Position numbers and translations under genes: made by a program. From an uncultured Veillonellaceae bacterium (GTDB lineage: Bacteria; Bacillota; Negativicutes; Veillonellales; Veillonellaceae), in NCBI GenBank assembly GCA_945867815.1, contig CAMBIX010000004.1, positions 124,001 to 188,000 on the forward strand: a stretch of DNA of 64,000 nt, given 5' to 3'. Of this stretch, positions 2,661 through 60,748 are shown piece after piece. Within the stretch, counting starts at the first letter, position 1; every line of letters begins with the position of its first letter. The notes under the pieces are model-generated. The model was not told the DNA's origin. It saw nothing but the letters and a program-made list of their open reading frames with translations, and searched no databases.

Positions 2661-2663
2661 AAG

Positions 2664-2729: not shown

Positions 2730-2735
2730 TCATCA

Positions 2736-4189
<1,454 letters not shown>

Positions 4190-4204
4190 CTATCCCTACC
4201 TCTT

Positions 4205-6034: not shown

Positions 6035-6057
6035 TGAGGTATCCTCCTTATTCACTA

Positions 6058-6220: not shown

Positions 6221-6281
6221 TTTACGAATTAGGAAACTCCTTTCTATAGGTTACGGCTCATCTGAATTTTACACTCGACTT

Positions 6282-6311
6282 ATTATACTGAACTATAAGA
6301 AATTTTGTAAA
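6282..6311 (-). promoter_or_regulatory. Promoter of glmS
   Basis: TTTACA, 18-bp spacer, TATAAT on the minus strand. It would start transcription near 6275, about 60 nt ahead of the ribozyme cleavage site, so glmS has its own promoter separate from glmM. Confidence 0.75.
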
Positions 6312-6345
6312 GGCTTATCAGTAAAAAGACGCCTTTAAAAACAAA

Positions 6346-6446
6346 AGTTTATAAAAGTAAATAGAAAGAGACTCCCCTTAGCCACTTTACAAGCTTTCCC
6401 TAAAAGAAGTCCCCCTATAGTATTTACTTTCTCTCGTTTATAAACT
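6346..6446 (-). terminator. Terminator-like long inverted repeat after glmM
   Basis: AGTTTATAAAAGTAAATA at 6346-6363 is the imperfect complement of 6421-6446, and the minus strand continues into TTTGTTTTT. The roughly 55-nt loop is unusually long. It probably ends the cdaA-glmM transcript. Confidence 0.55.
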
Positions 6447-6449
6447 AGC

Positions 6450-7808: not shown

Positions 7809-7810
7809 TG

Positions 7811-11208: not shown

Positions 11209-11523
11209 TTATATATTCTGTGTGCGTATCCACACATCCATATTACCACCACAGACCATGCCTTCTTTAACAGACACATCATCATTTAAATCAACAAAAA
11301 TGCGCCGAAAAGCTTCTTTCTTATCTAAGGCATCCATCGCACTAAGACGAATCTCATTTTCAGCACGGCCTCCTCCAATAGTACCAAAAATTTGCCCATT
11401 CGGATAGACCACCATACTGGTGCCTGCCTTACGAGGAGTGTGACCATGCGTTTGTAATATGGTTGCTACCGCTAATTTTTCACCTTCGCGCTGCTTTAAA
11501 TAATCAATAAATGCTCGTTCCAT
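11209..11523 (-). CDS. XdhC/CoxI N-terminal domain protein (separate small gene)
   Basis: A 104-aa protein made of the XdhC/CoxI N-terminal domain alone: KLAVATILQTHGHTPRKAG, then IFGTIGGGRAE and the conserved GMVCGG(N)MDVW near the end. XdhC-type proteins insert the sulfurated (or seleniated) molybdenum cofactor into hydroxylases. Here this domain is a separate gene placed after the Rossmann-domain gene, with the start overlapping the previous stop (TAATG). The two products probably act together. It is the last gene of the hydroxylase operon, 15 bp ahead of cdaA. Confidence 0.88.
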   Translation of the reverse strand: MERAFIDYLKQREGEKLAVATILQTHGHTPRKAGTSMVVYPNGQIFGTIGGGRAENEIRLSAMDALDKKEAFRRIFVDLNDDVSVKEGMVCGGNMDVWIRTQNI

Positions 11524-12251
11524 TATACTCCCTCTTCTCTCTTTTGTGACAAAAATCGCCCATCACGGCCACGTGTAGCCGCCAAATACTCCCCTACAAT
11601 CGATATAGCAATTTCCTCTGGTGTCTGCGCATCAATATCAAGCCCAATTGGCCCATGTATATAAGACAATTCTTTATCTGTCCAGCCTTCTTTTTTTAAT
11701 TGCTGAAAGGCATAATAAATTCGCTTCTGGCTACCCATAATCCCCATATAGGTTTGTCCTAACAAGGGGCGCAACTGTTTCAAACTAGTGCTATCAAATT
11801 CATGAGCTCTCGTAACAATAATAATGCCTTTATACGTATGCACAGGTAATTCCTGGCAAATCGCTTCAAAATCAATTTGCTTACGAGTCACTCGTTCATC
11901 AAAATACACTGGTTTTAAATACTCCGTTCTATCATCTGCGACGGTTACCTGACAGCCAATAAATACTAACAAGTCCGTAATACAGCGACTCACATGGCCA
12001 GCCCCTAAAACTAAAACAGCCGAATCCTTTTGTATAGGCTCTACAAAACACTCTATATCACCAGCTAATACCAAGGCATTAGCCATTTGCTGGTTAATTC
12101 TTAATCCCTCTATAACCTCTCCATAAACAACTTCATTGTCTGCCGTATAGATTGACGACTGTCCTGCCTTAGGTCCACTTAACTGAGTAACTAAAAAAGA
12201 AAGGCCATCGGCTTCTAATCGCCTAGCCATACTATCATACATAGTCTCCAT
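11523..12251 (-). CDS. XdhC C-terminal Rossmann-domain protein
   Basis: A 242-aa protein corresponding to the Rossmann half of XdhC: AVLVLGAGHVSRCITDLL near residue 78, VTVADDR near 101, then YMGIMGSQKR and the family ending PIGLDIDAQTPEEIAISI. It is predicted to be a molybdenum-cofactor chaperone for the hydroxylase at 14.6-18.1 kb. The start at 12251 has GGAGAG upstream and overlaps yqeB by 17 bp. A tandem TAATG junction joins it to the N-terminal-domain gene. Confidence 0.9.
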   Translation of the reverse strand: METMYDSMARRLEADGLSFLVTQLSGPKAGQSSIYTADNEVVYGEVIEGLRINQQMANALVLAGDIECFVEPIQKDSAVLVLGAGHVSRCITDLLVFIGCQVTVADDRTEYLKPVYFDERVTRKQIDFEAICQELPVHTYKGIIIVTRAHEFDSTSLKQLRPLLGQTYMGIMGSQKRIYYAFQQLKKEGWTDKELSYIHGPIGLDIDAQTPEEIAISIVGEYLAATRGRDGRFLSQKREEGV

Positions 12252-13065
12252 TTATACTCTCTCCTATAAATGCTAATGCGGCTTCTACAACACCGCCCCC
12301 AACAGCTAACGCCTTATCAGATATAGTAAAACAATGCGAATCCTTACAACGAGCATCCACATCACCTAACTTCATACCCTTAGTAACAAGCAAGCCTGAT
12401 GTAAGAACCCCTCTAAGCACACCTTTTATTTGTGATTTTACTGGCTTATCATCAACAAAACCAATGATTTCGCCCGTTTCTACATGCTCACCAATATAAC
12501 GTTTAGCTGTAAACAAACCAGCTTCAGGCGCATATAAGACACGTTCTTTTGTATAACCGCCTACATTACCAGGTACACCTGTATTAGGTAAAGCTGGCCC
12601 ATCATAAATACACCGGCCTAGCGTATGCCCCCGCATGGTCTCAACAACCACATCAACGTCTCTACCAGCTGTAAAGCCCGGTCCGCAAGCAATAACCAAA
12701 GGGGCATCATCCGTGTCTGTACCTAAATTATGTTTAGCCAAAATAGCATCAACTACAATAGTCGGCTGCACAATATCAAGAACTTTTTCATAATCTTCCG
12801 TCACAACAGGAATCGTCGCCAACTGTCGTCCTTCCTGTTGAGCAGACAATACTAATAAAGCCTCTTCTAAACTCATATAGCGAGCCGTATACCGTTCAAC
12901 TGTCATTTCCCCTTTATGAACAGCATTACCATAGGCGACTTCTGTACGCACCATCGTTGGAATTTTTATCTCGGTAACAACAACAGGAAAACCTGCCCGC
13001 CGAAGGCGATAAATACAGCCAGTTGCTATATCCCCGCCACCACGAACAAGGACAATTTTCTTCAT
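12235..13065 (-). CDS. yqeB: YqeB-type selenium-dependent molybdenum hydroxylase system protein
   Basis: About 276 aa with N-terminal IVLVRGGGDIATG and a VACGPGFTAGRDVDVVVETMRGH segment near residue 140, which place it in the EF2563/YqeB family. That family is found with SelD and molybdenum hydroxylases that carry labile selenium; its biochemical role is not settled. ATG 13065 (MKKIVLV) is preferred to the TTG at 13071. It overlaps the XdhC Rossmann gene downstream and lies 66 bp after mocA. Confidence 0.9.
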   Translation of the reverse strand: MKKIVLVRGGGDIATGCIYRLRRAGFPVVVTEIKIPTMVRTEVAYGNAVHKGEMTVERYTARYMSLEEALLVLSAQQEGRQLATIPVVTEDYEKVLDIVQPTIVVDAILAKHNLGTDTDDAPLVIACGPGFTAGRDVDVVVETMRGHTLGRCIYDGPALPNTGVPGNVGGYTKERVLYAPEAGLFTAKRYIGEHVETGEIIGFVDDKPVKSQIKGVLRGVLTSGLLVTKGMKLGDVDARCKDSHCFTISDKALAVGGGVVEAALAFIGESINGDYV

Positions 13066-13131
13066 AGTCAACCCTCTTATTCCATCTACTTTATCTAAGC
13101 ATGCTAAGTAGACCTTTCAAAACCGTTTATA

Positions 13132-13803
13132 CTAAGTATGCCTTCTACTTTGTCTCAATGAAAGCCAATACGTATAAGTAGCAGGACTATCTAAATCAAT
13201 ACCTTCTTCTGTCAGCCCTTGGCAATAGTGAATATAGGGAGCTCCTGCCTCTTGTAATAGATGCCGAGCCCCCTTATCTCCCTCTATTTGTTTCAAAAGG
13301 CTTTTCCAATAAACGCCCATAAGTAAGGGATGCCCTAGCTGCCTATCAGGTCCAAAAACAGAACGAATAATCGTTTTATTCGGTTCTTTATTTTTTCTTC
13401 GAACTCGCATAAAGTCCTGCACAGCTCTTGCTACTGTGAGACTTTGCAACATAGGTTGATCTGCTAATCCTATTAAAAAACCTACGGTCCCAGGAGTTGC
13501 TTCTTCTATAGCAAGACGCAGGGAGTAAGACTGTCCTAGGTCTATCTGCGTATTTAGTACTAGCTGATAGCCATAGGTCCCTGCTACTTTCTGAGCCTTC
13601 CTATCTCCTTGCGCTACAACAGCCACGTATTGAAACCGTACTGCTCTTTCCATAGTCTCCAAAGCCTTCTGACATCCCTCTTTATAAGTACACAAGGCCT
13701 GTTCCAAAAGCGTTCTCTGCCTCTGCCAGGGCAAATGAAGCTTATTCTGTCCCATACGCCGCGACTGACCAGCGGCTAAGATACAAACTCTTATGACTTC
13801 CAT
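13132..13803 (-). CDS. mocA: Molybdenum cofactor cytidylyltransferase (MocA-like)
   Basis: A nucleotidyltransferase of 223 aa with the signature ILAAGQSRRMGQNKL near residue 8, a later GLADQPML loop near 143 and GHPLLMG near 180. MocA-type enzymes attach CMP to molybdopterin to form the dinucleotide cofactor used by xanthine-dehydrogenase-type enzymes. The gene overlaps yqeC by 13 bp inside the hydroxylase operon, which supports a cofactor role rather than CDP-sugar synthesis. Confidence 0.88.
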   Translation of the reverse strand: MEVIRVCILAAGQSRRMGQNKLHLPWQRQRTLLEQALCTYKEGCQKALETMERAVRFQYVAVVAQGDRKAQKVAGTYGYQLVLNTQIDLGQSYSLRLAIEEATPGTVGFLIGLADQPMLQSLTVARAVQDFMRVRRKNKEPNKTIIRSVFGPDRQLGHPLLMGVYWKSLLKQIEGDKGARHLLQEAGAPYIHYCQGLTEEGIDLDSPATYTYWLSLRQSRRHT

Positions 13804-14552
13804 AGGAGACGCCGCCGAATTTCACAACTAGCCTTATAACCATCAGCCAAAAAGATTTCTTCTAAATCGGCCTGTTGCAATTCATCTAAAAAAGCTTCCA
13901 CATAATGAAGGGGTACCGTATTATACCCAGTACAAAACAATACTTTTTTGCCCTTACTATATTGGAAAAGCCCTTCTTTATGAAGAACCAATCGAGCCAA
14001 TAAGAAAGGCGTCATCATAGCCCCTTCTTCTCTTTCTAACAAATGACATACTTCTGGTAAATTATGTATATACATAGGTGATAAAGGCTTCGTAAGCATT
14101 TGTAAATTAAGCACCCCTATGGTTGTAGCTGTTAAACTTGGTATCACTGGTTCTGTCTTTTTTGGTGCCTTTAGCCATTTTTCTTTAGCTCCATCTGCTT
14201 CGACTAAAATCTGCCAATCAGGATGAACTTGAGCCATAGCCTCTATCTGTCTATCCGTAAGAGCCTGCACCTTAGTCCCTTCTATACCAGAGAACCAAGC
14301 ACTACAGCGGCCCCTTTGGATGGCCTGACTGCACCAATGATCGGCTTCATTAAAGTCATCTCCATAAAAAGGATTCCACTGGGCTACCTGTGTTTCATAC
14401 AAACGTGTCGTCGTGGTTACCAATAAAGGCTGACCACTATATTCACCATATTCTACTAGCTTCGTTAGCACTGTCGTCTTACCACCAGCGCCTACTAAAG
14501 CCGTAATACCTGGTCTTACTAATTGTTTCCAATAATCACGTTGTCTAATCAT
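13791..14552 (-). CDS. yqeC: YqeC-type selenium-dependent hydroxylase accessory protein
   Basis: A 253-aa P-loop protein: ALVGAGGKTTVLTKL near residue 18 is a Walker A, followed by LLVTTTTRLY and ILVEADGAKEKWLK near 115. These are the hallmarks of YqeC, a putative selenium-dependent hydroxylase accessory protein. It lies 31 bp after the molybdopterin-subunit gene and overlaps mocA. Exact biochemical activity is unknown. Confidence 0.9.
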   Translation of the reverse strand: MIRQRDYWKQLVRPGITALVGAGGKTTVLTKLVEYGEYSGQPLLVTTTTRLYETQVAQWNPFYGDDFNEADHWCSQAIQRGRCSAWFSGIEGTKVQALTDRQIEAMAQVHPDWQILVEADGAKEKWLKAPKKTEPVIPSLTATTIGVLNLQMLTKPLSPMYIHNLPEVCHLLEREEGAMMTPFLLARLVLHKEGLFQYSKGKKVLFCTGYNTVPLHYVEAFLDELQQADLEEIFLADGYKASCEIRRRLLWKS

Positions 14553-14583
14553 AAAGCACCCTCCTTATAGAAATACAAAGCCT

Positions 14584-16866
14584 CTACTTTTCTTGCATAG
14601 CCATAAATACTTCTTCTGGAATCATCGGTAAATTAGGTACTGAAGCACCTACTGCCTGGAGTATAGCATTATGTACAGCAGGGCAAGATGTATTAATAAC
14701 AACTTCTCCAATAGACTTCACACCAAAAGCGCCCGATGGCTCATAAGATTCTACAAAATCAACTGTAATCGGTCCAAAATCCTGCCGTGTTGGTACCTTA
14801 TAGTGCATAAAATTATTCGTTTCTAAACGGCCGGTTGAGGAATAGCGAACTTCCTCCGTTAAGGCCATACCTAAGCCTTGCGTAATACCACCTTCAGCCT
14901 GTACATGAGCCAACATAGGATTAACAAGAGTACCACAATCAACAACTGCATAAAAATGTGTAGGCACCACCTTGCCTGTCTCTGTATCAACCGATACTTC
15001 GGCAACACCTATCATAAAAGGCGGTGGCGATGTAGGACTACTCCACGTAGCGAAACCTGCTAATTGCTGACGATTGACACCACAAGTTTCCCTTTCAGCA
15101 AAGGCCTCTATAGATAAAACTTGACTGCCATCCCGCATACGCAGCTCTAACCCATCAAAGTCAATCCTATCAATGCTTGTTTCCCAACGTTTAGCCGCTA
15201 ATTCTATAATCTTCTTGCGCAAATCTTCCGCTGCTAATTTAGCTGCTGTCCCCGTCACATAGGTCGTACTTGATGCATAAGAACCAGGGTCAAAAGGCAC
15301 AACATCTGTATCCGCTTCATAAATATGCATGTTTGCCATAGGGCAACCCAAAACTTCACAAGCCATTTGCTGTAAGACCGTATTAGCCCCCATACCCATA
15401 TCGGTAGAGCCAGTATATAAAGTATACTGGCCTTCTTCTTGCAAACGAATTTCTACAGAAGCCACATCAATCTTAGCTACCCCGGACCCTTGAAAGGCCA
15501 TAGCTGCACCTAAACCGCCTCGATGGGTTTCATCAATCTGCCAGCTATGCGGTCGTTTATCCCAGCCAGACAGCTCTTTTACCCGCGCAATAGCCTCTGG
15601 AATGAGCCCCGACTCTAATCGTTCATCCTCCCCAAACACCAAGGCCCGTTCTCCTACACGTAAAACATTCTTCTCACGTAGTTCAATTTCATCCATATCT
15701 ATCTTCTTAGCTAATTCTGATACGGCATTCTCTAAGGGCCACAAGGCTTCTGTTGCCCCATAACCACGAAAGGCACCACCTGACGAATGATTGGTATAAA
15801 CGACATCCCCTTCATAGCGTACAGCCTTCAATTTACCATAAAGGCCGATTGACTTATGTTCACCTGCTGTCAAAGTCGTGAAAGCGTGATACCCATAAGC
15901 TCCCGCATCAGATAGGGTATACATGTCAATAACGCGTATAAATCCATCCTTTGTCGCACCAATACGAATGGTCCATTCTCTTGCATGCCGTGTCGTTGAA
16001 CACGTATTCGCTTCACTACGGTCATAAATAAGAACAGACGGCTTTTTTAATTTCCAAGTTACAAAGGCACAGGCCGGTTCTACACAAGCCGTCTGCTTAG
16101 ACCCAAAGCCACCACCAATGCGTGGTTTTATAAGACGAATTTTACTAGCCGAAATTCCTAAGGCTCGAGCTAGCTGACGACGTACATGAAAAGGAATCTG
16201 TGTGGAACTCGTTACCACTAAACGACCAAACTGATCAATAGTAGAAAAGCAACGAAAAGTCTCCATAGCGGACTGTACAGTGGCTTGGTCAAAATATTTG
16301 CCTTCATGTACATAATCACAGGCCGCTAATTCAACCTCTACATCACCAACGACATGCTTATAGGAACAAGCAATATTCCGTTTAGGGTCGCCACCTACAG
16401 GAAAGTTATAACTTAAATCTTCTTCATTGTGAATAATAGATGGATTATCTATCGCCTCATGTATATCAAGTATAGGCTTTTTTACGTCATACGTAACCTT
16501 TACAAGAGCTTCGGCTTTTAAAGCCGTTTCTTCATCAACAGCTACAACAAAGGCTACCGCATCACCTACATAGCGTACGACCTTATCTAAAATCAAAGTA
16601 TCGTAAGCTGATGCCTCCGGATAAGTCTGTCCAGCCAAAGTAAAGCGCGTTTGCGGCACATCCTTATAGGTAAATACAGCCTCCACTCCAGGTACTTTCA
16701 TAGCGGCACTAGTATCTATGGATACAATTTCCGCAAAGGGATGGGGGCTTCGTTTCACCTTTATAACCAAGGCATGGGCCGGCACAAAATCTTCTGTATA
16801 GGCAGCGCGGCCACTTAAGATGGTCTCCGCATCTACCTTCTTATATGACTGTCCTACGTGTTTCAT
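14584..16866 (-). CDS. Molybdenum hydroxylase, molybdopterin-binding large subunit
   Basis: The catalytic subunit (760 aa) of a xanthine-dehydrogenase-family enzyme. Visible features are the N-terminal aldehyde-oxidase/XDH hammerhead domain, the molybdopterin motifs GGGFGSKQ and FRGYGATEA, a GSTDMGMGAN loop and the active-site glutamate in GVKSIGE near the C-terminus. The start overlaps the 2Fe-2S gene by 4 bp. Substrate is unknown; purine or nicotinate-type heterocycles are the usual candidates. The yqeB/yqeC neighbours suggest a selenium-containing cofactor. Confidence 0.93.
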   Translation of the reverse strand: MKHVGQSYKKVDAETILSGRAAYTEDFVPAHALVIKVKRSPHPFAEIVSIDTSAAMKVPGVEAVFTYKDVPQTRFTLAGQTYPEASAYDTLILDKVVRYVGDAVAFVVAVDEETALKAEALVKVTYDVKKPILDIHEAIDNPSIIHNEEDLSYNFPVGGDPKRNIACSYKHVVGDVEVELAACDYVHEGKYFDQATVQSAMETFRCFSTIDQFGRLVVTSSTQIPFHVRRQLARALGISASKIRLIKPRIGGGFGSKQTACVEPACAFVTWKLKKPSVLIYDRSEANTCSTTRHAREWTIRIGATKDGFIRVIDMYTLSDAGAYGYHAFTTLTAGEHKSIGLYGKLKAVRYEGDVVYTNHSSGGAFRGYGATEALWPLENAVSELAKKIDMDEIELREKNVLRVGERALVFGEDERLESGLIPEAIARVKELSGWDKRPHSWQIDETHRGGLGAAMAFQGSGVAKIDVASVEIRLQEEGQYTLYTGSTDMGMGANTVLQQMACEVLGCPMANMHIYEADTDVVPFDPGSYASSTTYVTGTAAKLAAEDLRKKIIELAAKRWETSIDRIDFDGLELRMRDGSQVLSIEAFAERETCGVNRQQLAGFATWSSPTSPPPFMIGVAEVSVDTETGKVVPTHFYAVVDCGTLVNPMLAHVQAEGGITQGLGMALTEEVRYSSTGRLETNNFMHYKVPTRQDFGPITVDFVESYEPSGAFGVKSIGEVVINTSCPAVHNAILQAVGASVPNLPMIPEEVFMAMQEK

Positions 16867-17324
16867 TGTGCCATTGCCTCCAAGTACTTACGAATCCCTC
16901 TAAGTTGCGACTGATAACCTGTGCAACGGCATAAGTTCCCTACTAAAAAATCTTTTATTTCCTGGTCCGTAGGATGAGCTTTTTTACGTCGTAAGGCCAT
17001 TACGCTCATCATCATGCCTGTTGTGCAATAGCCACACTGATCCGCCCCTTCAGAAGCTAAACACTCACCTAAAAAGGCTGCTTCCTCTTTAAGACCTTCT
17101 AAAGTAGTAATCGTATGGCCTTGCGCACGCACTGTCAAATAAGCACAAGATAAAATGATTTCTCCATCAACCCATATCGTGCACAAGCCACAGTTCGTTG
17201 TATCACAACCACAACGCACACTATAAAGACCTAAGTTACGCAAGGTGGTCAGCAGCATTTCATCTGGTGCTGCCTGCACCGTGTAAAGTTGACCATTAAC
17301 GTTCAATTGTAAGGTAAGGCTCAT
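16863..17324 (-). CDS. Molybdenum hydroxylase, 2Fe-2S subunit
   Basis: A 153-aa electron-transfer subunit with two [2Fe-2S] clusters. The plant-ferredoxin-type cluster ligands are in CGCDTTNCGLC (near residue 38) and the distal Cys in ILSCAY. The second, helical cluster uses QCGYCTTGM and GNLCRCTGYQ. Length and motif order match the small subunit of XDH/CO-dehydrogenase enzymes. It overlaps both neighbours by 4 bp. Confidence 0.96.
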   Translation of the reverse strand: MSLTLQLNVNGQLYTVQAAPDEMLLTTLRNLGLYSVRCGCDTTNCGLCTIWVDGEIILSCAYLTVRAQGHTITTLEGLKEEAAFLGECLASEGADQCGYCTTGMMMSVMALRRKKAHPTDQEIKDFLVGNLCRCTGYQSQLRGIRKYLEAMAQ

Positions 17325-18103
17325 ACGTTTACCTCCTCTACTAAGCGTTTTACTAAGACAGCGGCCATTGCTTTTCTATAAGACTCTGATGCATGAGAAT
17401 TCGATTGAAAGGTAAGCTCTTCTTTCACCTTATCCATAGCCATAGGTAAACCATCTAGCCCTTCTTCTGCTACTATTTGACTAGTCGCTTGTGCTTTAGT
17501 CGCTATTCCTGGACGGCCTCCTATATATATTTCATACTTATGATTGTCTAATCGAATAGCACCTGTTATATAAGGAAAATCAGCATTTGATTTACGTAAA
17601 GCTAGGGAAGCCACTTTCGGCGCTGTTAAATCGAATCGAATCTCCTTAATTATATGTCTTTCCCTATAAGCAGCATATGATTCCGCAGACAAAACCGTAT
17701 TATCCGCTAAAACGACTTGTCCGTGCAGGGCTAAGAAAACCGGCCAGATATCCGAAAAGCCAAATCGGCCAGCTATCGAACCGCCTATAGTCGCCATATT
17801 ACGAAATTGAACGCCTAAAATAGCATGTATCGCTTTTACAAACGCCCCATCAGCTAGACTACGACAAACTTCATTTTCTTCTATTTGTCTCTGCGTAACC
17901 ATACTGCCTATACAAAGCTGACCCTCTTCCACTCGAATATAATCGAGTCCACATAAGGATAAATCAATTACAAGAGGCCACTTTCTTTTAGCCAACCGCA
18001 ACCAACAACCGGATCCTAAAAGCGGAGCCAACTTATTTCTCTTAGCTAAAGCATCGGCCTCTTCTAGGGTCTTTGGTTGTTCTAATCGTGTAAAACGTAA
18101 CAT
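17321..18103 (-). CDS. Molybdenum hydroxylase, FAD-binding subunit
   Basis: A 260-aa medium subunit of the CoxM/XdhB type. LAPLLGSGCWLRLAKR near residue 26 and ATIGGSIAGRFGFSD near 107 are the FAD-binding segments. It passes electrons from the iron-sulfur subunit to the final acceptor. It is the first gene of the hydroxylase operon, with AAAGGAGAG ahead of its ATG. The three subunit genes overlap end to end, indicating one coupled transcript of eight genes to 11209. Confidence 0.93.
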   Translation of the reverse strand: MLRFTRLEQPKTLEEADALAKRNKLAPLLGSGCWLRLAKRKWPLVIDLSLCGLDYIRVEEGQLCIGSMVTQRQIEENEVCRSLADGAFVKAIHAILGVQFRNMATIGGSIAGRFGFSDIWPVFLALHGQVVLADNTVLSAESYAAYRERHIIKEIRFDLTAPKVASLALRKSNADFPYITGAIRLDNHKYEIYIGGRPGIATKAQATSQIVAEEGLDGLPMAMDKVKEELTFQSNSHASESYRKAMAAVLVKRLVEEVNV

Positions 18104-35198: not shown

Positions 35199-36328
35199 TT
35201 ATGCTTCTATTAAATATTTTTCGACAACCTTTGTATAAATCTGCACTGCTTCATGCACCATAGGCAGTTCTACATATTCATCACGTTGGTGAGCCATTTC
35301 CATCCGCCCAGGTCCACACACAATAAGCGGAATGCCTGTTCTTGGCCGATATACAGAAGCATCCGTATAACCCGTTAAACTCTTAGGCTGCGCCTGTGCA
35401 AAAATCGACGCATCTGTATAACTTAACCCCATATGTGTCAAATCAAAACCTCGCGCCTTCACCAAATAAGTCGGCAGCCAAGATAAAAAGCCCCAAAGGG
35501 TAATATCAAAAAAGAAAAAACATAGAAAGGTCTGCCATACAGCAGGAATAGCTAAAATCTGCCAAAAGCTTTGCTTTTCCTTCTTCCCAATCTCTTGTAC
35601 TACTGCCCCTTGATGAAGCTTAACCTTCTCTAATGAACGAACCTTTTCTTGGCACTGATCAGATAGCCTACGTTCATCTTTTCCAAGGTCATCAGTCCCT
35701 TCAATTTCAGCTAACTCCTCTGATGTAATAGACTGACTCTCTCTCGGATGATCGGGAATATACTTCCAAATTAACCAGCACATAAAAAGACCAGGCATAA
35801 ACAAACTAATAAAAACCATGTGCCAGCCCCAAGACGCCATAATAGCTACCACAAACAAAGGTGCTAAAGCCGGCCCAAAGGAATTAGATGACATCATGCT
35901 CCCTGTAGCTAGCCCCCGCTCTTTCTTGGGAAACCAATTACACAAGGCTCGATAGGAGGCCGACTGAAAAATGCCTTCCCCTACCCCAAATAAAACGCGA
36001 ATAACAAGCAAACTAACCAAAGATGTGGCAAAGCCTGTTAACACGGTAAAAACAGACCAGCAAGCAACACCTAATAGCATGACCTTCCGGCTACCAAAGC
36101 GGTCGCCAATATACCTCCCGGTATCTGACACAGGGCATACCCAATAAAGAAAGCACTCATAACCACACCCATAGTTACCGGCTTAAGCCCAAAATCATCA
36201 GCCATGTAAGGTATAGCTGTAGCCATAACCATACGATCTAAATAGGAAGTTACCCACACTAAAAATAATACGCTCACTACTGCATAACGTTGCCGCCACC
36301 AAGTCATAGACATTCGTCCCTCTCTCAT
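35199..36328 (-). pseudogene. Broken MFS transporter fused to the tail of an M20 peptidase
   Basis: The first part (36328 to about 36108) encodes helices 1-2 of an MFS carrier ending ALCQIPGGILA. The reading then continues in another frame with DRFGSRKVMLLG; one base missing in the codon after TTG explains the shift. The MFS sequence runs to the seventh or eighth helix (LPTYLVKARGFDLTHMGLS). It then switches to the C-terminus of an M20 metallopeptidase (KSLTGYTDASVY, GIPLIVCGPG, MAHQRDEYVEL). An internal deletion that joined two genes fits best. Confidence 0.85.
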
Positions 36329-46717: not shown

Positions 46718-46794
<77 letters not shown>

Positions 46795-46884
46795 ATATGT
46801 AATTATTTTTGTTTTTATGGTAATATGAAATTATGAGTAATCAGCAGGCGTCTAATTACTCATAATTTCCTCCATATAAAAAAA

Positions 46885-46958
46885 TGGAGCGGGTGAAGGG
46901 AATCGAACCCTCGTGACCAGCTTGGAAGGCTGGGGCTCTACCATTGAGCTACACCCGC
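46885..46958 (-). tRNA. tRNA-Gly(UCC)
   Basis: GCGGGTG acceptor pairs with CACCCGC, CCA encoded; anticodon loop CTTCCAA gives UCC. 74 nt. Confidence 0.97.
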
Positions 46959-46962
46959 AGTA

Positions 46963-47039
46963 TGGTCGGAGCAGCAGGACTTGAACCTGCGACCCCCTGG
47001 TCCCAAGCCAGGTGCGCTACCAAACTGCGCTATGCCCCG
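46963..47039 (-). tRNA. tRNA-Pro(UGG)
   Basis: CGGGGCA acceptor with CCA encoded; anticodon loop CTTGGGA gives UGG. 77 nt, 4 bp from tRNA-Gly. Confidence 0.97.
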
Positions 47040-47076
47040 ATGTATAAAATTATTTGTTGCCGGCCCGAATCTATAT

Positions 47077-47153
47077 TGGTCGGGACGACAGGATTTGAAC
47101 CTGCGACCCCCTAGTCCCGAACCAGGTGCGCTACCAAACTGCGCTACGTCCCG
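47077..47153 (-). tRNA. tRNA-Pro(CGG)
   Basis: CGGGACG acceptor pairs with CGTCCCG, CCA encoded; anticodon loop TTCGGGA gives CGG (codon CCG). The body is nearly the same as the neighbouring tRNA-Pro(UGG), which suggests a tandem duplication that diverged. Confidence 0.97.
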
Positions 47154-47320
47154 CAACATTGATAGTGTATCATACCGTTTCAAAAAGCACAAGTACTTTT
47201 TAAGAGATATTTTTACCTTCATGTTAGTAACTCTTCCACACCTTTTATCAGATGTTTCTAAGCCTTGAACGCTAACGGTTCAGTTTGTTCAATCCAACTG
47301 CGAATTTACCGCATGTGAGC

Positions 47321-47329
47321 ATTATACCA
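47321..47329 (-). promoter_or_regulatory. Extended -10 promoter upstream of the Pro-Pro-Gly-Arg tRNAs
   Basis: TGGTATAAT on the minus strand (TGnTATAAT), within the 215-bp gap between tRNA-Ser and tRNA-Pro(CGG). No good -35. Confidence 0.45.
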
Positions 47330-47368
47330 CACAAAAATATATCCGCCTAGCCCTAAAAAGAAAAAATA

Positions 47369-47461
47369 TGGCGGAGAAGGAGAGATTTGAACTCTCGCGC
47401 CAGCATTCACTGACCTACCGCATTTCGAGTGCGGACCCTTCAGCCACTTGGGTACTTCTCC
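47369..47461 (-). tRNA. tRNA-Ser(CGA)
   Basis: GGAGAAG acceptor pairs with CTTCTCC, CCA encoded, long variable arm; anticodon loop CTCGAAA gives CGA (codon UCG). 93 nt. It begins 31 bp after the tadA stop and may be cotranscribed with tadA. Confidence 0.97.
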
Positions 47462-47492
47462 ACATATAAAGAAAACACTAGAAAACAATCAA

Positions 47493-48719: not shown

Positions 48720-49247
48720 ATGGCAATAAGCAACTTATACAAAACAAGCTTTTCTATCCCTACTCTAGGCCTTCTACATGCCTTCAGCAACGGTCTAGCC
48801 TTAACAGGGCTTGCCTTTCCCAGCCAGCTAGATAAAAACAAAGACTATAATACCTACACGAGTATAGCCTACCAAGACCTACCTGTATTCGCAAGCACCT
48901 ACCACTGGTTAGTCACCTATGCCAAAGGCTTAGAACCCCAATTCTTACCACCTCTTGATTACTCTTCTGGTACAGCTTTTCGTAAAGCTGTTTGGTCAGC
49001 TCTATTAGCTATTCCTTACGGACAGACTCGCACCTATGGGCAATTAGCCCAGCAAGTGTACGGGCAAACGCCCAAAGGATTCATGGCACGTGCCATTGGT
49101 AGTGCAGTGGGACATAACCCGATTGCCATTATTATCCCTTGTCACCGCATTATCGGTGCAGACCATTCATTAACAGGTTATACTGGTGGCATCACTATTA
49201 AGCGTCAGCTTCTTGCGCTCGAAGGAAGTTATCCTTTTTCAAAATAA
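48720..49247 (+). CDS. ogt: Methylated-DNA--protein-cysteine methyltransferase
   Basis: Removes methyl groups from O6-methylguanine in DNA by transfer to its own cysteine. The acceptor Cys141 is in IIIPCHRIIG, the helix-turn-helix arginine finger is in YGQLAQQVYG and the Asn hinge in VGHNPIA. 175 aa with a short N-terminal domain, typical of Ogt. GGAGG precedes the ATG by 8 nt. Confidence 0.95.
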   Translation: MAISNLYKTSFSIPTLGLLHAFSNGLALTGLAFPSQLDKNKDYNTYTSIAYQDLPVFASTYHWLVTYAKGLEPQFLPPLDYSSGTAFRKAVWSALLAIPYGQTRTYGQLAQQVYGQTPKGFMARAIGSAVGHNPIAIIIPCHRIIGADHSLTGYTGGITIKRQLLALEGSYPFSK

Positions 49248-49265: not shown

Positions 49266-50465
49266 CTACTTAAAGCTGCTAATCATAGAATTAAATACAG
49301 GTGTAAAGTAGCCGCGTTCTGTATCAGAAGTTACAAACACATACATAGTCGGCTGCGGTGCCGTTATAATGCCTGCCATTTTAACAAAGAAAGGCATTTC
49401 AAAGCCATTTACATTCGCAATGACACGAGTACCACAAGTAATTGTTTGATAAGCCGTATTTGGCACAACAACAACAGGTTCCAAATCAATTAACTGTACC
49501 TTAGCTTGGATCTGATTACCTGGGCGACTTTCCATACGAGCAATGGCTTGATTAATCGTATCTTGCAATTTAGGCATCTGGTCATTCATAAAAGCCGTCA
49601 TAAATTTCAACTGCATCTGATTAATACCCTGTGGCTGCTGTTTAAAATTCTTAATTTCTTTTGACTTAGCGAACAAAGAAGCATGTACTGGCATACCTGG
49701 CGCCATCATCGGAAAGGCTGGCAACTGAAAAGCAAATACACTAGCTGTATTATAACCAGTAGCTGTCTTACCCGTTAATTCATAATAATCATATTTTGTA
49801 CCAAATTGACCAATCAAATCTTTCATGAAAGCCGCCCCATTCATTGGGTCCATGAAATGGCGATTATGGAACTGACCTTGTTTATGACCTACCCGATTCG
49901 CATGGTCTTTGTGATACTTATAAGCCCCCATATGTTTCTTGTGGTGCTTTTGCTGATCCGCTGGTGCTTTTACATTTAATAGTTGCTTACCATCAATCTT
50001 TTCCACTGGTCCTACTGGTCCTAACGGTCCCATACCTGGTATTGGTTCAATACGATTCAACTGTTCTGAATGGCCTGCCTTATCCGATGGTGCTTGTGTA
50101 TGAATTAATGTTTTTCCATTAATCTTTTCCACTGGTCCCACGGGGCCTAGGCCTTTTGGAAAATGGTGCTTAACTTCTTTACCATCTTTTTTCTGAGCTT
50201 CCTGCGCATAGCGATCAGCACTAATCATAGCTGAATCTTTTAAATACTGTCCAGTTGCCGTTTTAGAAAAGTTCGTTAAAATAACACCTGCTGGCACCTG
50301 CATAGTACCACCAACAACAGTCGCTGTATTACCTTCTGTCGTTGCTATCTGATTAACAATAATTGGTGTTGTCACTGTATTCACTGATGCCGCTTGTGCA
50401 GGCACACTCAAGCCCATAGTTACTGCTGTTGCTGCCATAACAGCCATTGTCTTCCACGATTTCAT
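49266..50465 (-). CDS. Exported His-rich protein with GPVGPVEKI repeats, unknown function
   Basis: A roughly 399-aa secreted protein. ATG 50465 gives a clean Sec signal peptide ending VPAQAA. The mature protein has an N-terminal beta-rich part (GTMQVPAGVILTNFS), then two copies of a repeat of about 45 residues built on GPVGPVEKI-G-K and AP-D, and a histidine-rich segment (HHKKHMGAYKYHKDHA). The C-terminal domain ends ERGYFTPVFNSMISSFK, like PsbP/DUF1795-type exported domains. It shares N-terminal layout with the protein encoded just upstream. No family recognised with confidence. Confidence 0.75.
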   Translation of the reverse strand: MKSWKTMAVMAATAVTMGLSVPAQAASVNTVTTPIIVNQIATTEGNTATVVGGTMQVPAGVILTNFSKTATGQYLKDSAMISADRYAQEAQKKDGKEVKHHFPKGLGPVGPVEKINGKTLIHTQAPSDKAGHSEQLNRIEPIPGMGPLGPVGPVEKIDGKQLLNVKAPADQQKHHKKHMGAYKYHKDHANRVGHKQGQFHNRHFMDPMNGAAFMKDLIGQFGTKYDYYELTGKTATGYNTASVFAFQLPAFPMMAPGMPVHASLFAKSKEIKNFKQQPQGINQMQLKFMTAFMNDQMPKLQDTINQAIARMESRPGNQIQAKVQLIDLEPVVVVPNTAYQTITCGTRVIANVNGFEMPFFVKMAGIITAPQPTMYVFVTSDTERGYFTPVFNSMISSFK

Positions 50466-50485
50466 ATATCTAGTTACCTCCACTC

Positions 50486-51301
50486 TTATTGAATACCCCA
50501 TGCTGTTTTTACCACATTATACCAGTAAGCATAGTCATGTTGATTTGTATCAACAACTGTAATCACACGCCCTGTATTGGTCTGTTGTTGTAAAACAATA
50601 AGAGCTACTGGCGAATATAAACCATCTTTAATCTTCGTCACACGCACGGTACTAATATAGACAGGCCCTACATTCGACTGCACTTTTTTAGATGGGCTAT
50701 ATTCACTAATATCATAAGAAACATCTTTGCCCATGGCATCATAATACTTACTAAGTAAATCTTGCTGTTCCTTCATGGATTGAGGATCATAAGTCGCACT
50801 ACGCTGTAAAAAGCTGCCAACTAAGCCGTCGCTAATTCGATTAAAGGTGTCCAACTGTTTTTGTAGCTCTTTAGCATTCGTTGCGCCACCAATATCTTTT
50901 GGCTGCCCTGTTGCCGATGTATCTTTTAAGGTATAGACCATAGCTGTTGTATGGCCTTCATTTGTAACGCCCTGCAATTGATAAATATTTAACGTATCTA
51001 TTACTTTTTGTGCCTTATCGACGCCAGCAATCGCATTTTTTACCTGCTGTGCCGTTAAACTTGGAGTGACTTGCATTTGTGCTGTTGATAAACTCTTATT
51101 AACACTTTCACGAATACGCTTCATCAAATCAACCGATCCCTGTGGGGTTTCTACCTGTTCTGCATTAAAAACGGTAATGCCTGTAGGCATATTCACTGTC
51201 TGATTACCTGCTGTCGTTACCGAATCAGCCCATACCGGTGTAGCCAATACACAGGCAGCCGCTGCGGTTACCAAGCCTTTACGCAAACTCTGTAGTTTCA
51301 T
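50486..51301 (-). CDS. Exported protein paired with the His-rich protein, unknown function
   Basis: A 271-aa protein with a Sec signal peptide cut after TPVWA. The mature N-terminus (NQTVNMPTGITVFNAEQ) is similar to that of the downstream protein (GTMQVPAGVILTNF), so the two may be paralogues. The C-terminal half has beta strands (VYISTVRVTKIKDGLYSP, LIVLQQQTNTGRVITVVD). AGGAGG precedes the ATG. The two genes are 20 bp apart and surely cotranscribed. Probably periplasmic or envelope-located. Confidence 0.75.
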   Translation of the reverse strand: MKLQSLRKGLVTAAAACVLATPVWADSVTTAGNQTVNMPTGITVFNAEQVETPQGSVDLMKRIRESVNKSLSTAQMQVTPSLTAQQVKNAIAGVDKAQKVIDTLNIYQLQGVTNEGHTTAMVYTLKDTSATGQPKDIGGATNAKELQKQLDTFNRISDGLVGSFLQRSATYDPQSMKEQQDLLSKYYDAMGKDVSYDISEYSPSKKVQSNVGPVYISTVRVTKIKDGLYSPVALIVLQQQTNTGRVITVVDTNQHDYAYWYNVVKTAWGIQ

Positions 51302-51622: not shown

Positions 51623-52522
51623 ATGAACACCATTCAATTTATCCGTCTAACCCGTCCACGAACCCTAGCCGCCAGCCTAGGTCCCGTTATCTTAGGAGCT
51701 GCTTTTGGGGCCAGCCAATTTCCCCTCGCACAAAATATAGCCTTATCTTTCCTTTATACCTTGGCCATCCTCACCTGTGTTATGTGTGCCCAAATTGCTG
51801 CCAATATATGGAATGAATATTTTGACTACAAATCCGGTCTTGACTTAAAACAAGCTGCGGGCAACAGCGGTTCTATTGTTCGTGACGGCCTATCCCCCGC
51901 CTTAATAAAAAAATTGGGTCTATACGTTTCTATTATCCCCCTCATCATTGGCTTCTTCCTATCAGCAGCCATCACTTGGTGGTACCTGCCTATAGGCGCC
52001 TTTTGTATTCTGATTAGCATTATTTATTCAGCTGGTCCCTATCCCCTGTCTAGAACGCCCTTTGGCGAACTGGCTTCCGGTCTTGCTATGGGCTTTGCCA
52101 TTGTATGCATTACCATCTACGCTTGGGCTGGCATCTTAACCGCAACCTACCTTATCCCTGCTATTCCTTCCATGCTACTGGTAGGCGCTATTATGACAAC
52201 AAATAATCTAAGAGACTATGCAAATGACCTTGCTCATGGTCGACATACCTTAGTCATATTGCTTGGTGAAAGCAAAGGGCTGTGCTTCCTAGGCAGCCTC
52301 TTTATCTTCTCCTGTTTATGGCTTAGTGCCTTTATTGCCCTTGCTCACCTATCCCTATGGACTCTACTTGCCTGGATAAGCTTACTACCTGCTTATAAGT
52401 CCATTCATATTCTTAACCAATACGCTGACAGTCTAATGATGAATCAAGCCATGAAATTCACATCCATAGCGACCATGCTCTATCATATTCTATTCGCCAT
52501 AGGTTTACTGCTTGGCCTTTAA
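51623..52522 (+). CDS. menA: 1,4-dihydroxy-2-naphthoate prenyltransferase
   Basis: A UbiA-family membrane prenyltransferase of 299 aa that attaches the isoprenoid tail in menaquinone synthesis. The first Asp-rich site is NIWNEYFDYKSGLD near residue 62 and the second is NNLRDYANDLAHGRHT near 193, with about eight membrane helices. TRPRTLAASLGPVILG at the start is typical of MenA. No other men genes are in the window. Confidence 0.9.
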   Translation: MNTIQFIRLTRPRTLAASLGPVILGAAFGASQFPLAQNIALSFLYTLAILTCVMCAQIAANIWNEYFDYKSGLDLKQAAGNSGSIVRDGLSPALIKKLGLYVSIIPLIIGFFLSAAITWWYLPIGAFCILISIIYSAGPYPLSRTPFGELASGLAMGFAIVCITIYAWAGILTATYLIPAIPSMLLVGAIMTTNNLRDYANDLAHGRHTLVILLGESKGLCFLGSLFIFSCLWLSAFIALAHLSLWTLLAWISLLPAYKSIHILNQYADSLMMNQAMKFTSIATMLYHILFAIGLLLGL

Positions 52523-58032: not shown

Positions 58033-58938
58033 TTACTTATCAGAATCATTGCTGTTTCCATTATCTTTCATCGATTTTTCTACTGATGCAACCGTTACCT
58101 CTGATAAATCCGTTGGCGTATCAAACGTTTCAACAACCTTAAATCCTACACCTAACTTACCTCGACTCACAGAAACAACCTTTTCATCATCATTCATCTT
58201 AGCAATATAAATGTTCTGATCTTTATCAACCCCAACTAGACGATAGGCTCCTGGTGGATTAATAACCCGCCAACCTCCTTCTTCTCCGTTAAACATAAAG
58301 ACATCATTCGTCCGCGCATTATCATAGAAGAATAAATCCTTATCATAGAAGACAGCTATCCGCCCTATATCAGAGGCCTGCATATACACACGGCGTGTAT
58401 CATAGTTTGCATCTGTCCGATAAATACGATACTTATCATCGCCGACTTTAATCTTCATATAGACAACATTCGTTGCTGTTGAATAAGCCACATCATCAAT
58501 TTCACTGCCTTCTGGCAAATCAGAAATCGTCGTATCCGCTTCATGATCTGGATTTTGTGGATCTACTCGGGCCAAAACAACATCATCAGAATCGCCACCA
58601 TAAAGCCCCATAATAGCAATATCTCGGTCAGGCATCCATTCAAAGTAACTAACTTCCCGCCCCTTCAAATCAATTTGTATAGGCTTATCACTGCCAGCTG
58701 TATAAATATTAACAGATGTCTTAGTCACAAGTGCCATATAGGTCTTATCATAAGAATAATAGCGCTGCCCTTCTCCTTTTATACTATCAAAAGCACTCGT
58801 ATCTCCATCATCAGAAGTGCCACTTACGGTAAAATCAGACGTTGGTGCTAAATAGTAATGATCCAAATAAAAGTAAACACCACCCTGCAAGGCTACGCCA
58901 AGAACAAAGGCCGTGGCCACTCTGCTAAATGTATTCAT
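58033..58938 (-). CDS. Exported protein with probable propeller-like repeats, unknown function
   Basis: A 301-aa protein with one N-terminal membrane segment (VATAFVLGVALQGGVYFY, residues 7-24) that serves as an anchor or uncleaved signal. The rest is a series of short beta-strand units (TYMALVTKTSVNIYTAG, DIAIMGLYGGDSDDVVLARV, IGRIAVFYDKDLFFYD, YRLVGVDKDQNIYIAK) that read like blades of a propeller. Family not recognised. It is the last gene of an operon with a deacetylase and a phosphodiester glycosidase, so an envelope glycan role is inferred. Confidence 0.75.
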   Translation of the reverse strand: MNTFSRVATAFVLGVALQGGVYFYLDHYYLAPTSDFTVSGTSDDGDTSAFDSIKGEGQRYYSYDKTYMALVTKTSVNIYTAGSDKPIQIDLKGREVSYFEWMPDRDIAIMGLYGGDSDDVVLARVDPQNPDHEADTTISDLPEGSEIDDVAYSTATNVVYMKIKVGDDKYRIYRTDANYDTRRVYMQASDIGRIAVFYDKDLFFYDNARTNDVFMFNGEEGGWRVINPPGAYRLVGVDKDQNIYIAKMNDDEKVVSVSRGKLGVGFKVVETFDTPTDLSEVTVASVEKSMKDNGNSNDSDK

Positions 58939-58946
58939 GGATCCTC

Positions 58947-59894
58947 CTATTTTACAATAAACGCTGTTGGAATCATGCGTTCACCTAACAAATCGGCCGG
59001 TTTATTCACGACTTTACCATTATAATACAAGGTTGAACTAGAACCACCATCTAAGTTGGCAGCAATAACGCAACCTTCTTCATACAAAATATCTTGTACG
59101 TCACGTAACGTAGCTCCTGTCGAATAGCCAGGCTGACGACCATCAATAACTAAGAAAATAACCGTGCCATCTTTTTTCTGCCCAATGGCTGTCCGCGGTC
59201 CAATGCCCCAGCCGCCATCGCCATCGGTAATCATTTTTTTACCATTAACAATAAGTGGCGGTCCAAATGTAACGCCCCACATAGCATCCATATCTTTTAA
59301 CTCTGTCTTGTCATAAGAACCAGCAATTAAGTTACCACTCTTAGTAAAGCCAATAAAGTCAACCGATTCAGAAGGCCCTACATCCTGCCCCAAGGTATAC
59401 TTACCATCCTGCAAAATAAAACCATAAGGAAGACGCCCTGTACCTGTACCATTAGGATCATAAAAGCCGCCTGCATTAATAGCAGCAATAGCATGATTTG
59501 CCTTAGCAATATTGCTCGTCGTATCTCCTTTTTCTTGGATATCCGGTGCCGTTGCTACTTGTATCATCTTTGGATTAGGGATTTCAAGCAAATAACCTAC
59601 ATAACGAGTCGAATGAATCTGTCGTAAGGTTAACTTCGTATCTGATTTAGCTGTAAAATCAAATAATTCCTGCGCATCGGTGGTGCCAACCGTACCTAGC
59701 ATTTTCTGTATCTCTGCTGGTGTAAACAACCACGTAATAAACTGCGGGTGTCTAGACCGCACAATAGCCCCTACAACCGTCCGCCGTATATTCGCGAAAG
59801 GGCCAAACAATATAACAATAGGCGACGTCACTATGGTAAATGCTATCATAAGAATAATAAATTTTACCCACGTCTTTCGCAAGAATGCTCTCAT
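58947..59894 (-). CDS. Phosphodiester glycosidase family protein (NAGPA domain)
   Basis: A membrane-anchored protein of 315 aa. A first helix (FIILMIAFTIVTSPIVILFG) is followed by the NAGPA/DUF2233 domain: AINAGGFYDPNG near residue 143, TFGPPLIVNGK near 215, GPRTAIGQKKDG and the hallmark AANLDGGSSSTLYYNG near 285. Family members cleave GlcNAc-1-phosphodiester bonds or act in exopolysaccharide and cell-wall polymer metabolism. It lies between the deacetylase and propeller genes, a few bp from each. Confidence 0.88.
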   Translation of the reverse strand: MRAFLRKTWVKFIILMIAFTIVTSPIVILFGPFANIRRTVVGAIVRSRHPQFITWLFTPAEIQKMLGTVGTTDAQELFDFTAKSDTKLTLRQIHSTRYVGYLLEIPNPKMIQVATAPDIQEKGDTTSNIAKANHAIAAINAGGFYDPNGTGTGRLPYGFILQDGKYTLGQDVGPSESVDFIGFTKSGNLIAGSYDKTELKDMDAMWGVTFGPPLIVNGKKMITDGDGGWGIGPRTAIGQKKDGTVIFLVIDGRQPGYSTGATLRDVQDILYEEGCVIAANLDGGSSSTLYYNGKVVNKPADLLGERMIPTAFIVK

Positions 59895-59914
59895 TCCGTA
59901 ATCCTCTCTACCTT

Positions 59915-60748
59915 CTATAAGTCTGTATAGTGTTCTGTCGTAATTCGTTCTCTAAAATGATTTAAATCCACTGCATTACCTATCCAAATTCTATGTAAGG
60001 TATATGGATTATCACCTACATGAACCCAGCCCGGATTCATAGATAAAGCCGCCTTAATATTATTCGCCTTACAAGCTTCTTCCGAATACGTATTAAAGCT
60101 GCCATAAGGATAACAGAACCAAACATTGCTAATACCTAATTTATCTTTTAAAGCTTCCTGCCCTTTTTGAATATTTTCAACCTGCTGGGCATTTGTTAAC
60201 TCTTTCATATGAATATGTTGGTAGCCATGGTTAGCAATTGTATACCCTGCTTCTTTCATTTCCTTTAATTGAGCCCATGTCATACGCTGACCTACATCAC
60301 CTGGATTAACAAAGAAAGTCGCATCAAAGCCATATTCCTTTAATACAGGAAATACAATGCTATAAGTATCAGCATAACCATCATCAAAAGTTAGCACCAC
60401 TGGTTTTACTGGTACGGGTGTCCCTTTAGTCACATAATCATATAACTGCTGCATAGAAATTGGATGAAAGCCTTCTTCTTTTAGCAGTTTCATTTGCTTT
60501 TTAAAGAGCTCTTCACTAATAACCGCATCATTATCTTTATCGGGTCCAATTTTATGGTACATCAGCACAGGAATTCCCTTAGGTACAGCTGTTGGCACAT
60601 TCACATCTGGTGTAATAACAGAGGCCGTTTTCTTCGGCGCATCTGATGTAGAACTTCCTTCTCGGCCTTGTAAACTGCAACCACTAAGAAGCAATAAAAG
60701 AGCACTGCAAAACACAGTTAACAAGGCTATAAGTATATTACGTTTCAT
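59915..60748 (-). CDS. Polysaccharide deacetylase lipoprotein (NodB domain)
   Basis: A carbohydrate esterase 4 protein of 277 aa. Lipobox LLSGC (Cys24) makes it a lipoprotein. The NodB motifs are VLTFDDGYADTY near residue 119 (catalytic Asp pair) and NHGYQHIHM near 193 (metal His-x-x-x-His style). Such enzymes remove acetyl groups from GlcNAc in exopolysaccharide (PgaB/IcaB) or peptidoglycan. First gene of the three-gene envelope operon. Confidence 0.92.
   Translation of the reverse strand: MKRNILIALLTVFCSALLLLLSGCSLQGREGSSTSDAPKKTASVITPDVNVPTAVPKGIPVLMYHKIGPDKDNDAVISEELFKKQMKLLKEEGFHPISMQQLYDYVTKGTPVPVKPVVLTFDDGYADTYSIVFPVLKEYGFDATFFVNPGDVGQRMTWAQLKEMKEAGYTIANHGYQHIHMKELTNAQQVENIQKGQEALKDKLGISNVWFCYPYGSFNTYSEEACKANNIKAALSMNPGWVHVGDNPYTLHRIWIGNAVDLNHFRERITTEHYTDL

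Follow-up and report, generated by a model that had tools for sequence, protein, structure and literature searches.

A Paralogous Pair of Exported Proteins in Negativicutes with a Likely Mog1p/PsbP-Like Fold

The window analyzed here is a stretch of 64,000 nucleotides from an uncultured Veillonellaceae bacterium (assembly GCA_945867815.1, contig CAMBIX010000004.1, positions 124,001 to 188,000). It contains two adjacent genes on the minus strand, here called A and B, which lie between a menA-like gene and ogt (Table 1). An earlier interpretation of this DNA from its letters and open reading frames (ORFs) alone, referred to below as the sequence-only reading, had described their products as a cotranscribed pair of exported proteins of unknown family. 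Profile comparison identifies A and B as full-length paralogues, structure prediction suggests that both adopt the fold of Mog1p, PsbP, DcrB, and the Eag chaperones, and among the Veillonellaceae genomes sampled the two genes occur either together or not at all.

Gene Pair and Export Signals

In each of the two proteins, a hydrophobic N-terminal segment precedes an AxA site, an arrangement that crude rules classify as a Sec-type signal peptide. By the same rules, neither window protein contains a lipobox. A loose lipobox pattern occurs in 3 of 44 family rows, at positions that are not conserved in the remaining rows. The longest ORF for B codes for 411 residues from position 50501 and overlaps with A, and an alternative ATG at 50465 gives 399 residues. 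We assign the start to this ATG because a GGAGG Shine-Dalgarno motif is located in the gap and the signal peptide begins right there. The stop codon of A and the start codon of B are then separated by 20 bp. No terminator-like site was found in this gap, which makes transcription of A and B as one message plausible. A promoter-like site just upstream of B (50543-50516; 10 of 12 positions match, with TG before the second hexamer) could also provide B with its own transcription start. Such sites are common here, with 14 found compared to 8.2 ± 3.2 in shuffles. This excess is only modest, so promoter-like sites are no guide to transcription.

Table 1. Features of the A/B Locus (Window Coordinates)
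Feature	Coordinates	Strand	Remarks
Gene A	50486..51301	(-)	271 aa exported protein, fold predicted as Mog1p/PsbP-like; V. parvula orthologue Vpar_0412 (coordinate matching)
Signal peptide of A	51227..51301	(-)	residues ~1-25, ...TPVWA|DS; sequence and crude rule check
A/B gap	50466..50485	(-)	20 bp; holds GGAGG ribosome-binding site for B
Gene B	49266..50465	(-)	399 aa exported protein, predicted fold as in A, plus long insert
Signal peptide of B	50391..50465	(-)	residues ~1-25, ...VPAQA|AS; sequence and crude rule check
Insert of B	49851..50183	(-)	residues 95-205; only in this species; predicted disordered
Repeat copy 1, GLGPVGPVEKINGKTLIHTQAPSDK region	50079..50149	(-)	DNA duplication comparison
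Repeat copy 2, LGPVGPVEKIDGKQLLNVKAPADQ region	49953..50023	(-)	76% identical to copy 1 at the DNA level
His cluster of B	49857..49946	(-)	residues 174-203; 8 His, counted by eye
menA-like gene, UbiA-family prenyltransferase	51623..52522	(+)	PF01040, E 4.9e-23; conserved synteny anchor, outside the system
ogt, O6-methylguanine-DNA methyltransferase	48720..49247	(+)	PF01035, E 2.8e-30; convergent with B; synteny anchor, outside the system

Sequence libraries do not assign either protein to a family. Searches against Pfam, NCBIfam, and PADLOC models and against PDB sequences returned no convincing match to A or B, that is, nothing or weak unrelated hits. In PHROGs, A has one marginal match to a family of unknown function (phrog_30718, E 0.001, residues 30-86). 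We also compiled a mixed family alignment of 26 members (A4). Its best match among all PDB sequences has an E value of 0.47, and no Pfam model matches more than one of the 26 members at E up to 0.05. Rfam at gathering thresholds detects nothing between 49200 and 51700. PF08786 (DcrB, DUF1795) has no match above the cut-off in any of 60 genomes of relatives, and the five weak matches (E up to 0.1) all lie away from A/B loci. In Pfam, neither this model nor a PsbP family matches A, B, or any of the 26 A4 members, and the PDB sequences gave no PsbP match either. Similarity to LpqN was absent at E up to 10 when A4, and likewise single sequences, were compared with all PDB sequences.

A and B as Paralogues

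A direct BLASTP comparison of A with B is not significant (E 0.078). Two profiles, A1 from 21 A-type rows and A2 from 23 B-type rows, were built independently of each other. Their alignment by hhalign spans 259 columns at a probability of 98.9% and E 1.3e-17, and it pairs the C-terminal halves as well as the mature N-termini. In addition, the B profile, which was trained without A, recovers window A (E 2.0e-6; profile positions 7-120). Both proteins contain a hairpin that starts with YQLQG in A and YELTG in B, and a common C-terminal block in which two aromatic residues close to the end are conserved (YW in A, YF in B). By these sequence comparisons, A and B are full-length paralogues.

This result bears on several elements of the sequence-only reading. 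The description of two exported proteins encoded as a pair agrees with two minus-strand ORFs that both start with Sec-type signal peptides, and the statement that no family is recognizable was borne out by the searches above. The similarity that had been noticed between the mature N-termini corresponds to homology in the profile alignment. The same reading had assigned separate C-terminal domains to the two proteins. This idea fails, since the C-terminal halves align and structure prediction, which had been proposed as a check for a common C-terminal fold, gives both a Mog1p/PsbP-like fold. For the same two reasons, paralogy and a shared predicted fold, we rejected a model of two proteins with unrelated C-termini.

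In a maximum-likelihood tree of 61 proteins, calculated without fused A-B proteins, one branch (support 94/81, narrowly missing the program's star) sets off all 21 A rows, and a second (support 99/98) sets off all 23 B rows. The duplicates found in one genus (g3) are sisters within each clade, with support of 93/80 for A, flagged as a possible long-branch join, and 100/99 for B. This arrangement fits a block duplication of the A-B unit in g3. The B side of the tree also contains four downstream proteins from other families (92/89) and the single-copy proteins of more distant families. Long branches, including those of both window proteins, make positions inside each clade uncertain. The program marks the joins of the g3 A copies, like some joins of distant rows, as possible long-branch artifacts.

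Predicted Fold

Single-chain models of A and B were calculated with AlphaFold2 and compared with the PDB by Foldseek and VIA. In model A, most 10-residue blocks from residue 201 on have a predicted local distance difference test score (pLDDT) above 90, and the mean is 71. Model B has a mean pLDDT of 62, with strand blocks at about 79-96, some loop and helix blocks at 50-73, and the insert mostly below 50. Foldseek ranks EagT6 first (probability 1.00) and DcrB second (0.99) for model A. The best VIA match of this model is DcrB (6e8a, Z 8.4, root-mean-square deviation (rmsd) 3.0, 111 aligned), followed by 1tu1 (Z 8.2, 3.2, 116), EagT6 (Z 8.0, 5.8, 129), 3lyd (Z 8.0, 3.5, 133), SciW (Z 7.5), TplEi (Z 7.4), LpqN (Z 7.0, 3.6, 130), and PsbP and Mog1 (Z 6.8-7.0). 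For model B, the top Foldseek rows are EagT6 (probability 1.00, E 1.6e-3), PsbP, and SciW. Its best VIA match is the CyanoP/PsbP structure 2xb3 (Z 8.8, rmsd 3.9, 150 aligned), after which the list consists mostly of PsbP, EagT6, DcrB, LpqN, Apa, MTC28, and Mog1 chains and a few rows of unknown function. The Z score then drops from 4.8 at rank 40 to 4.0 at rank 41, and most rows above this step are named members of the fold. Both models display its order of elements, an antiparallel β-sheet flanked by helices with the C-terminal helix last. We take the other matched structures to belong to the same group as DcrB. The latter has been assigned to the Mog1p/PsbP group in a structural study (PMC7716261).

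Several observations weigh against this assignment. No Foldseek match of either model reaches an E value of 0.001 or less. The top six Foldseek rows of model A include the differently described entries 5wsy, 5xmg, and 3b18 (probability 0.44-0.75), and START domains come next in its VIA list (Z 5.5-4.8) with no sharp step. The best Z scores of 8.4-8.8 are modest; models that lack a clear match often score only slightly lower. The two models, with the mean pLDDT values given above, rest on just 21 (A) and 23 (B) sequences. Since two separately built models agree on one fold, we consider it likely, but not certain, that A and B both adopt the Mog1p/PsbP/DcrB/Eag fold.

Repeat and Histidine Insert of B

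The most conspicuous part of B is an insert that, in this model, would decorate one loop of the fold. The sequence-only reading had correctly pointed out two copies of GPVGPVEKI and a histidine cluster. The two copies begin at residues 107 and 149, eight histidines fall within residues 174-203, and 12 of the 13 histidines of B are contained in residues 95-205. At the DNA level, the repeat is a 71-nt duplication with a spacing of 126 nt (42 codons) and 54 of 71 positions identical (76%). Among 100 dinucleotide shuffles of the B gene, the best value was 42 of 71. The repeat and histidine sequence has no counterpart in the alignment of the other 22 B-type rows; three rows from g3 carry a different stretch of ~33 residues at the same position. 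Searched alone in the 60 genomes, the insert gave a credible match to itself only, and the next hit (E 0.011) lies in a frame with stops. The low pLDDT of this region predicts disorder. As far as sampled, these sequence comparisons characterize the insert as a species-specific decoration of a single loop. It cannot account for a function that 25 genomes have in common.

Distribution and Synteny

Among 28 genomes of the family Veillonellaceae, 25 contain both A and B, three contain neither, and none contains one alone. In G016, one of these three, pncB and ogt are 106 bp apart and have no pair between them. The other two (G026 and G023) lack the pair around menA; the loss in G023 is less sure than that in G016, because menA of G023 sits near a contig start. 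Since 3 of 28 genomes lack the pair, it is dispensable. Where relatives have the pair, it adjoins menA or pncB at all 24 loci, with pncB immediately upstream in 11 of them; the locus holds its position. A gene pattern search had missed menA of locus L051 and pncB of locus L087, and both were counted from direct inspection. At more distant loci, pncB is located beside or near the array in 5 of 17 cases (L071, L072, L080, L084, and L087). In other families of the order, pncB has a larger array beside it: L087 contains four exported ORFs at 5340-9537, all matched by A4, and L080 contains four at 2590-5519, three of them matched.

The neighbors of the pair in the window and in 24 relatives are menA, pncB, ogt, ridA, tadA, or metQ, all housekeeping-like. 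The menA (UbiA family) and ogt assignments were checked with Pfam in the window; pncB, ridA, tadA, and metQ are names that we presume from the look of the sequences. To describe divergence, we used the identity of the best-matching pieces to the window, which cover about half of A and B and nearly the whole of the neighbors. The median identities are 29.0% for A (14 of 24 loci with E below 1e-3) and 26.2% for B (24 of 24 loci), compared to 52.4% for menA, 64.7% for metQ, 46.2% for ogt, 61.8% for ridA, and 79.6% for tadA (23, 17, 12, 23, and 16 of 24 loci, respectively). The A/B locus diverges faster than its neighbors.

Gene order varies within g3. Of its seven genomes, three encode A and B as a single ORF of ~700 residues (L044, where it spans 5598-7682, L047, and L050), two have the arrangement A-B-A-B (L040 and L041), one has A-B-B (L042), and one A-B (L059). 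In a further genome (G010), the B gene is split into two frames: the ORF at L055 5514-6197 lacks the N-terminal part, which is matched by G010:C2:166196-166414. This B may be broken or missequenced, while A is intact.

In the class Negativicutes as a whole, 66 of 380 genomes, distributed over 30 of 102 genera, have a match to the A4 profile; some of these 66 genomes supplied rows to A4. In a phylum-wide sample of 398 genomes, A4 matches two, namely, the window's own genome and, partially, another member of the class. None of the ~384 genomes in this sample that are listed in other classes has a match. A4 was trained within the class and may miss remote relatives, so the restriction to this class holds at this sensitivity.

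Localization of a V. parvula Orthologue

A proteomic study of V. parvula bears on the location of one of these proteins. It places a lipopolysaccharide-modification cluster, Vpar_0391-0394, at CP001820.1:477425-481382 (PMC5491611). In genome G018, position 481382 is exactly where the last of the four matching ORFs ends. Numbering the subsequent ORFs from this point, with one overlapping ORF of 66 residues omitted, gives MetQ as Vpar_0410, menA as Vpar_0411, A as Vpar_0412, and B as Vpar_0413. Table 1 of that study describes Vpar_0410 as a periplasmic binding protein and predicted lipoprotein, and Vpar_0412 as an uncharacterized protein in whole-cell, outer-membrane, and surface extracts; it has no entry for Vpar_0413 (PMC5491611). 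In the literature searched, no further paper mentions the tags Vpar_0411-0413. Strain SKV38 of V. parvula is a laboratory isolate with natural transformability (PMC7549365). The window also contains a three-gene run on the minus strand (58033-60748) that by eye resembles Vpar_0391-0393 in order. It codes for a lipoprotein resembling polysaccharide deacetylases and for two further exported proteins, the last of which has no Pfam match at E 0.01. The V. parvula study includes Vpar_0393 among its outer-membrane proteins (PMC5491611).

Other Features of the Window

Three further regions deserve mention. An ORF at 35199-36131 on the minus strand looks as if a deletion had fused two genes. Its residues 7-246 match a major facilitator superfamily transporter (PF07690, E 2.2e-40, with start and end of the profile missing), and its residues 249-304 match an M20 peptidase at the C-terminal end (PF01546, E 6.7e-5, slightly short of the cut-off). 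Five tRNA genes (Arg, Gly, Pro, Pro, Ser) occupy 46718-47461 on the minus strand, and the ORFs 46938-47222, 46981-47268, and 47306-47488 look spurious, as they read across tRNA genes. The region 11523-18103 on the minus strand resembles a molybdenum hydroxylase operon, with what we take to be xanthine dehydrogenase-like subunits and XdhC-, YqeB-, and YqeC-like maturation genes.

Proposed Function and Alternatives

How might these two proteins work? A and B would be ancient paralogues, a pair of periplasmic proteins with a Mog1p/PsbP-like fold. Judging from their signal peptides, they would be exported by Sec, cut by signal peptidase I, and, according to the models, fold as single-domain α/β sandwiches. 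Strict co-occurrence, block duplication, and natural A-B fusions suggest that they most likely assemble together, presumably in the periplasm or at the outer membrane. The complex probably works by binding, because most characterized proteins of this fold do. For example, the Eag proteins SciW and EagT6 form domain-swapped dimers that grip transmembrane helices (PMC7773334), LpqN is a partner of MmpL3 that has been studied with a lipid mimic (PMC7458404), and DcrB acts with YciB in membrane fluidity (PMC9487459). We surmise that A and B form a dispensable periplasmic complex that serves an envelope client as a soluble adaptor or holdase-type chaperone; the client could be a lipidic segment or a protein of the outer membrane or cell surface. 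We hold this reading with about as much doubt as conviction. The fold and the pairing are well supported; the client and the activity are what we infer. The repeat and histidine insert of B would be a species-specific loop decoration. A bolder version, in which a heteromeric chaperone or adaptor confined to Negativicutes, and in some species made as one chain, escorts outer-membrane or surface proteins, its clients vary fast between species, and B carries a metal-responsive arm in this organism, appears rather unlikely to us.

A number of facts speak against the adaptor or chaperone reading. Loss of the pair from three genomes argues against a central envelope role, and the housekeeping character of the neighboring genes means that synteny points to no client or functional partner. 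The support for the A clade falls just short of the tool's star. Because proteins of this fold also have roles in immunity, lipid binding, and scaffolding, the fold does not determine the function. As for location, Vpar_0413, which corresponds to B in our mapping, is outside the list of 78 outer-membrane proteins of the V. parvula study, which itself reports many false positives in its extracts (PMC5491611).

The immunity role of this fold suggests that A and B could be periplasmic proteins that bind and block toxins of neighboring bacteria. TplEi/Tli4 (5h7y) aligns with model A over 140 residues with Z 7.4 and rmsd 4.2, Tsi3 reaches Z 5.6, and an arms race would fit the tandem duplication, the dispensability, and the fast divergence of the locus (26-29% identity versus 46-80% for five neighboring genes). 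However, no toxin-like gene was recognized beside the locus in the window or in 24 relatives, PADLOC gave no match, and the locus is fixed in place and strictly paired. We consider this role quite unlikely. Similarly, A and B might bind a lipid or a small hydrophobic ligand and hand it over in the periplasm, as proposed for LpqN. This protein, the MmpL3 partner studied with a lipid mimic (PMC7458404), aligns with both models (6e5d, Z 7.0 for A and 7.4 for B), and START lipid-transfer domains appear lower in the list for A (Z 4.8-5.5). For B, however, START rows reach just Z 3.6-3.7, and the one linked lipid gene is menA, which in the window is transcribed separately and divergently. Lipid transfer is an explanation to which we assign little probability.

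The remaining alternative derives from the sequence-only reading, which had envisaged a lineage-specific envelope system, perhaps binding metal or a host ligand. The first half of this proposal stands within limits: the family is class-restricted in the samples searched, and one orthologue has been found in envelope extracts (PMC5491611). In favor of a surface system that binds metal or host ligands through the repeats and histidines of B are the location of 12 of its 13 histidines in the insert and the in-frame duplication behind the repeat. Yet these elements are absent from the other 22 B-type rows, and none of the other genomes among the 60 yielded them, so the conserved system works without this insert, which is moreover predicted to be disordered. 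Such a system is very unlikely, and metal or host-ligand binding as the core role was rejected because the insert is not conserved.

We return to the periplasmic adaptor or chaperone. Negativicutes are diderm Firmicutes that possess an outer membrane, and for many proteins of their envelope no function has been assigned. With a fold, a partner, and a family, two uncharacterized orphan proteins become one testable complex, for which the naturally fused A-B version should be of use in structural work. The conspicuous histidine and repeat segment appears as decoration and not as the conserved function.

Comparison with Known Systems

DcrB, a lipoprotein of E. coli and Salmonella (PF08786, DUF1795), is the best VIA match of model A and an envelope protein with the Mog1p/PsbP-like fold that is predicted for A and B. 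In contrast to DcrB, the A/B loci have no PF08786 match, the window proteins have no lipid anchor, and A and B are a strict paralogous pair. PsbP/CyanoP and Mog1p share the predicted fold as well, with 2xb3 as the best VIA match of model B, but no sequence similarity to A or B was found, and their photosystem and Ran roles are inapplicable. The exported mycobacterial proteins LpqN, MTC28, and Apa resemble A and B in predicted fold and in export across the inner membrane; they come from other bacteria, and their sequence similarity to A and B is undetectable. TplEi/Tli4 and Tsi3, immunity proteins of type VI secretion systems that we take to be periplasmic, match model A structurally. Unlike these, A and B have no cognate toxin gene recognized beside them.

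PA1624 of Pseudomonas aeruginosa is a periplasmic orphan whose N-terminal domain is DcrB-like without sequence similarity (PMC7716261). It differs from A and B by a second, OmpA-like domain and by being monomeric, and no paralogous pair is reported for it in the excerpted parts of that study (PMC7716261). The Eag chaperones EagT6 and SciW share the predicted fold and are the template for the holdase idea (PMC7773334). In contrast to A and B, they are cytoplasmic, act on prePAAR effectors of type VI secretion systems, lie next to genes for effectors with transmembrane domains, and form dimers of one protein, whereas A and B are exported, comprise two paralogues, and have no such neighbors. Compared with these systems, A and B are a new, paired, and class-restricted variant of a known fold.

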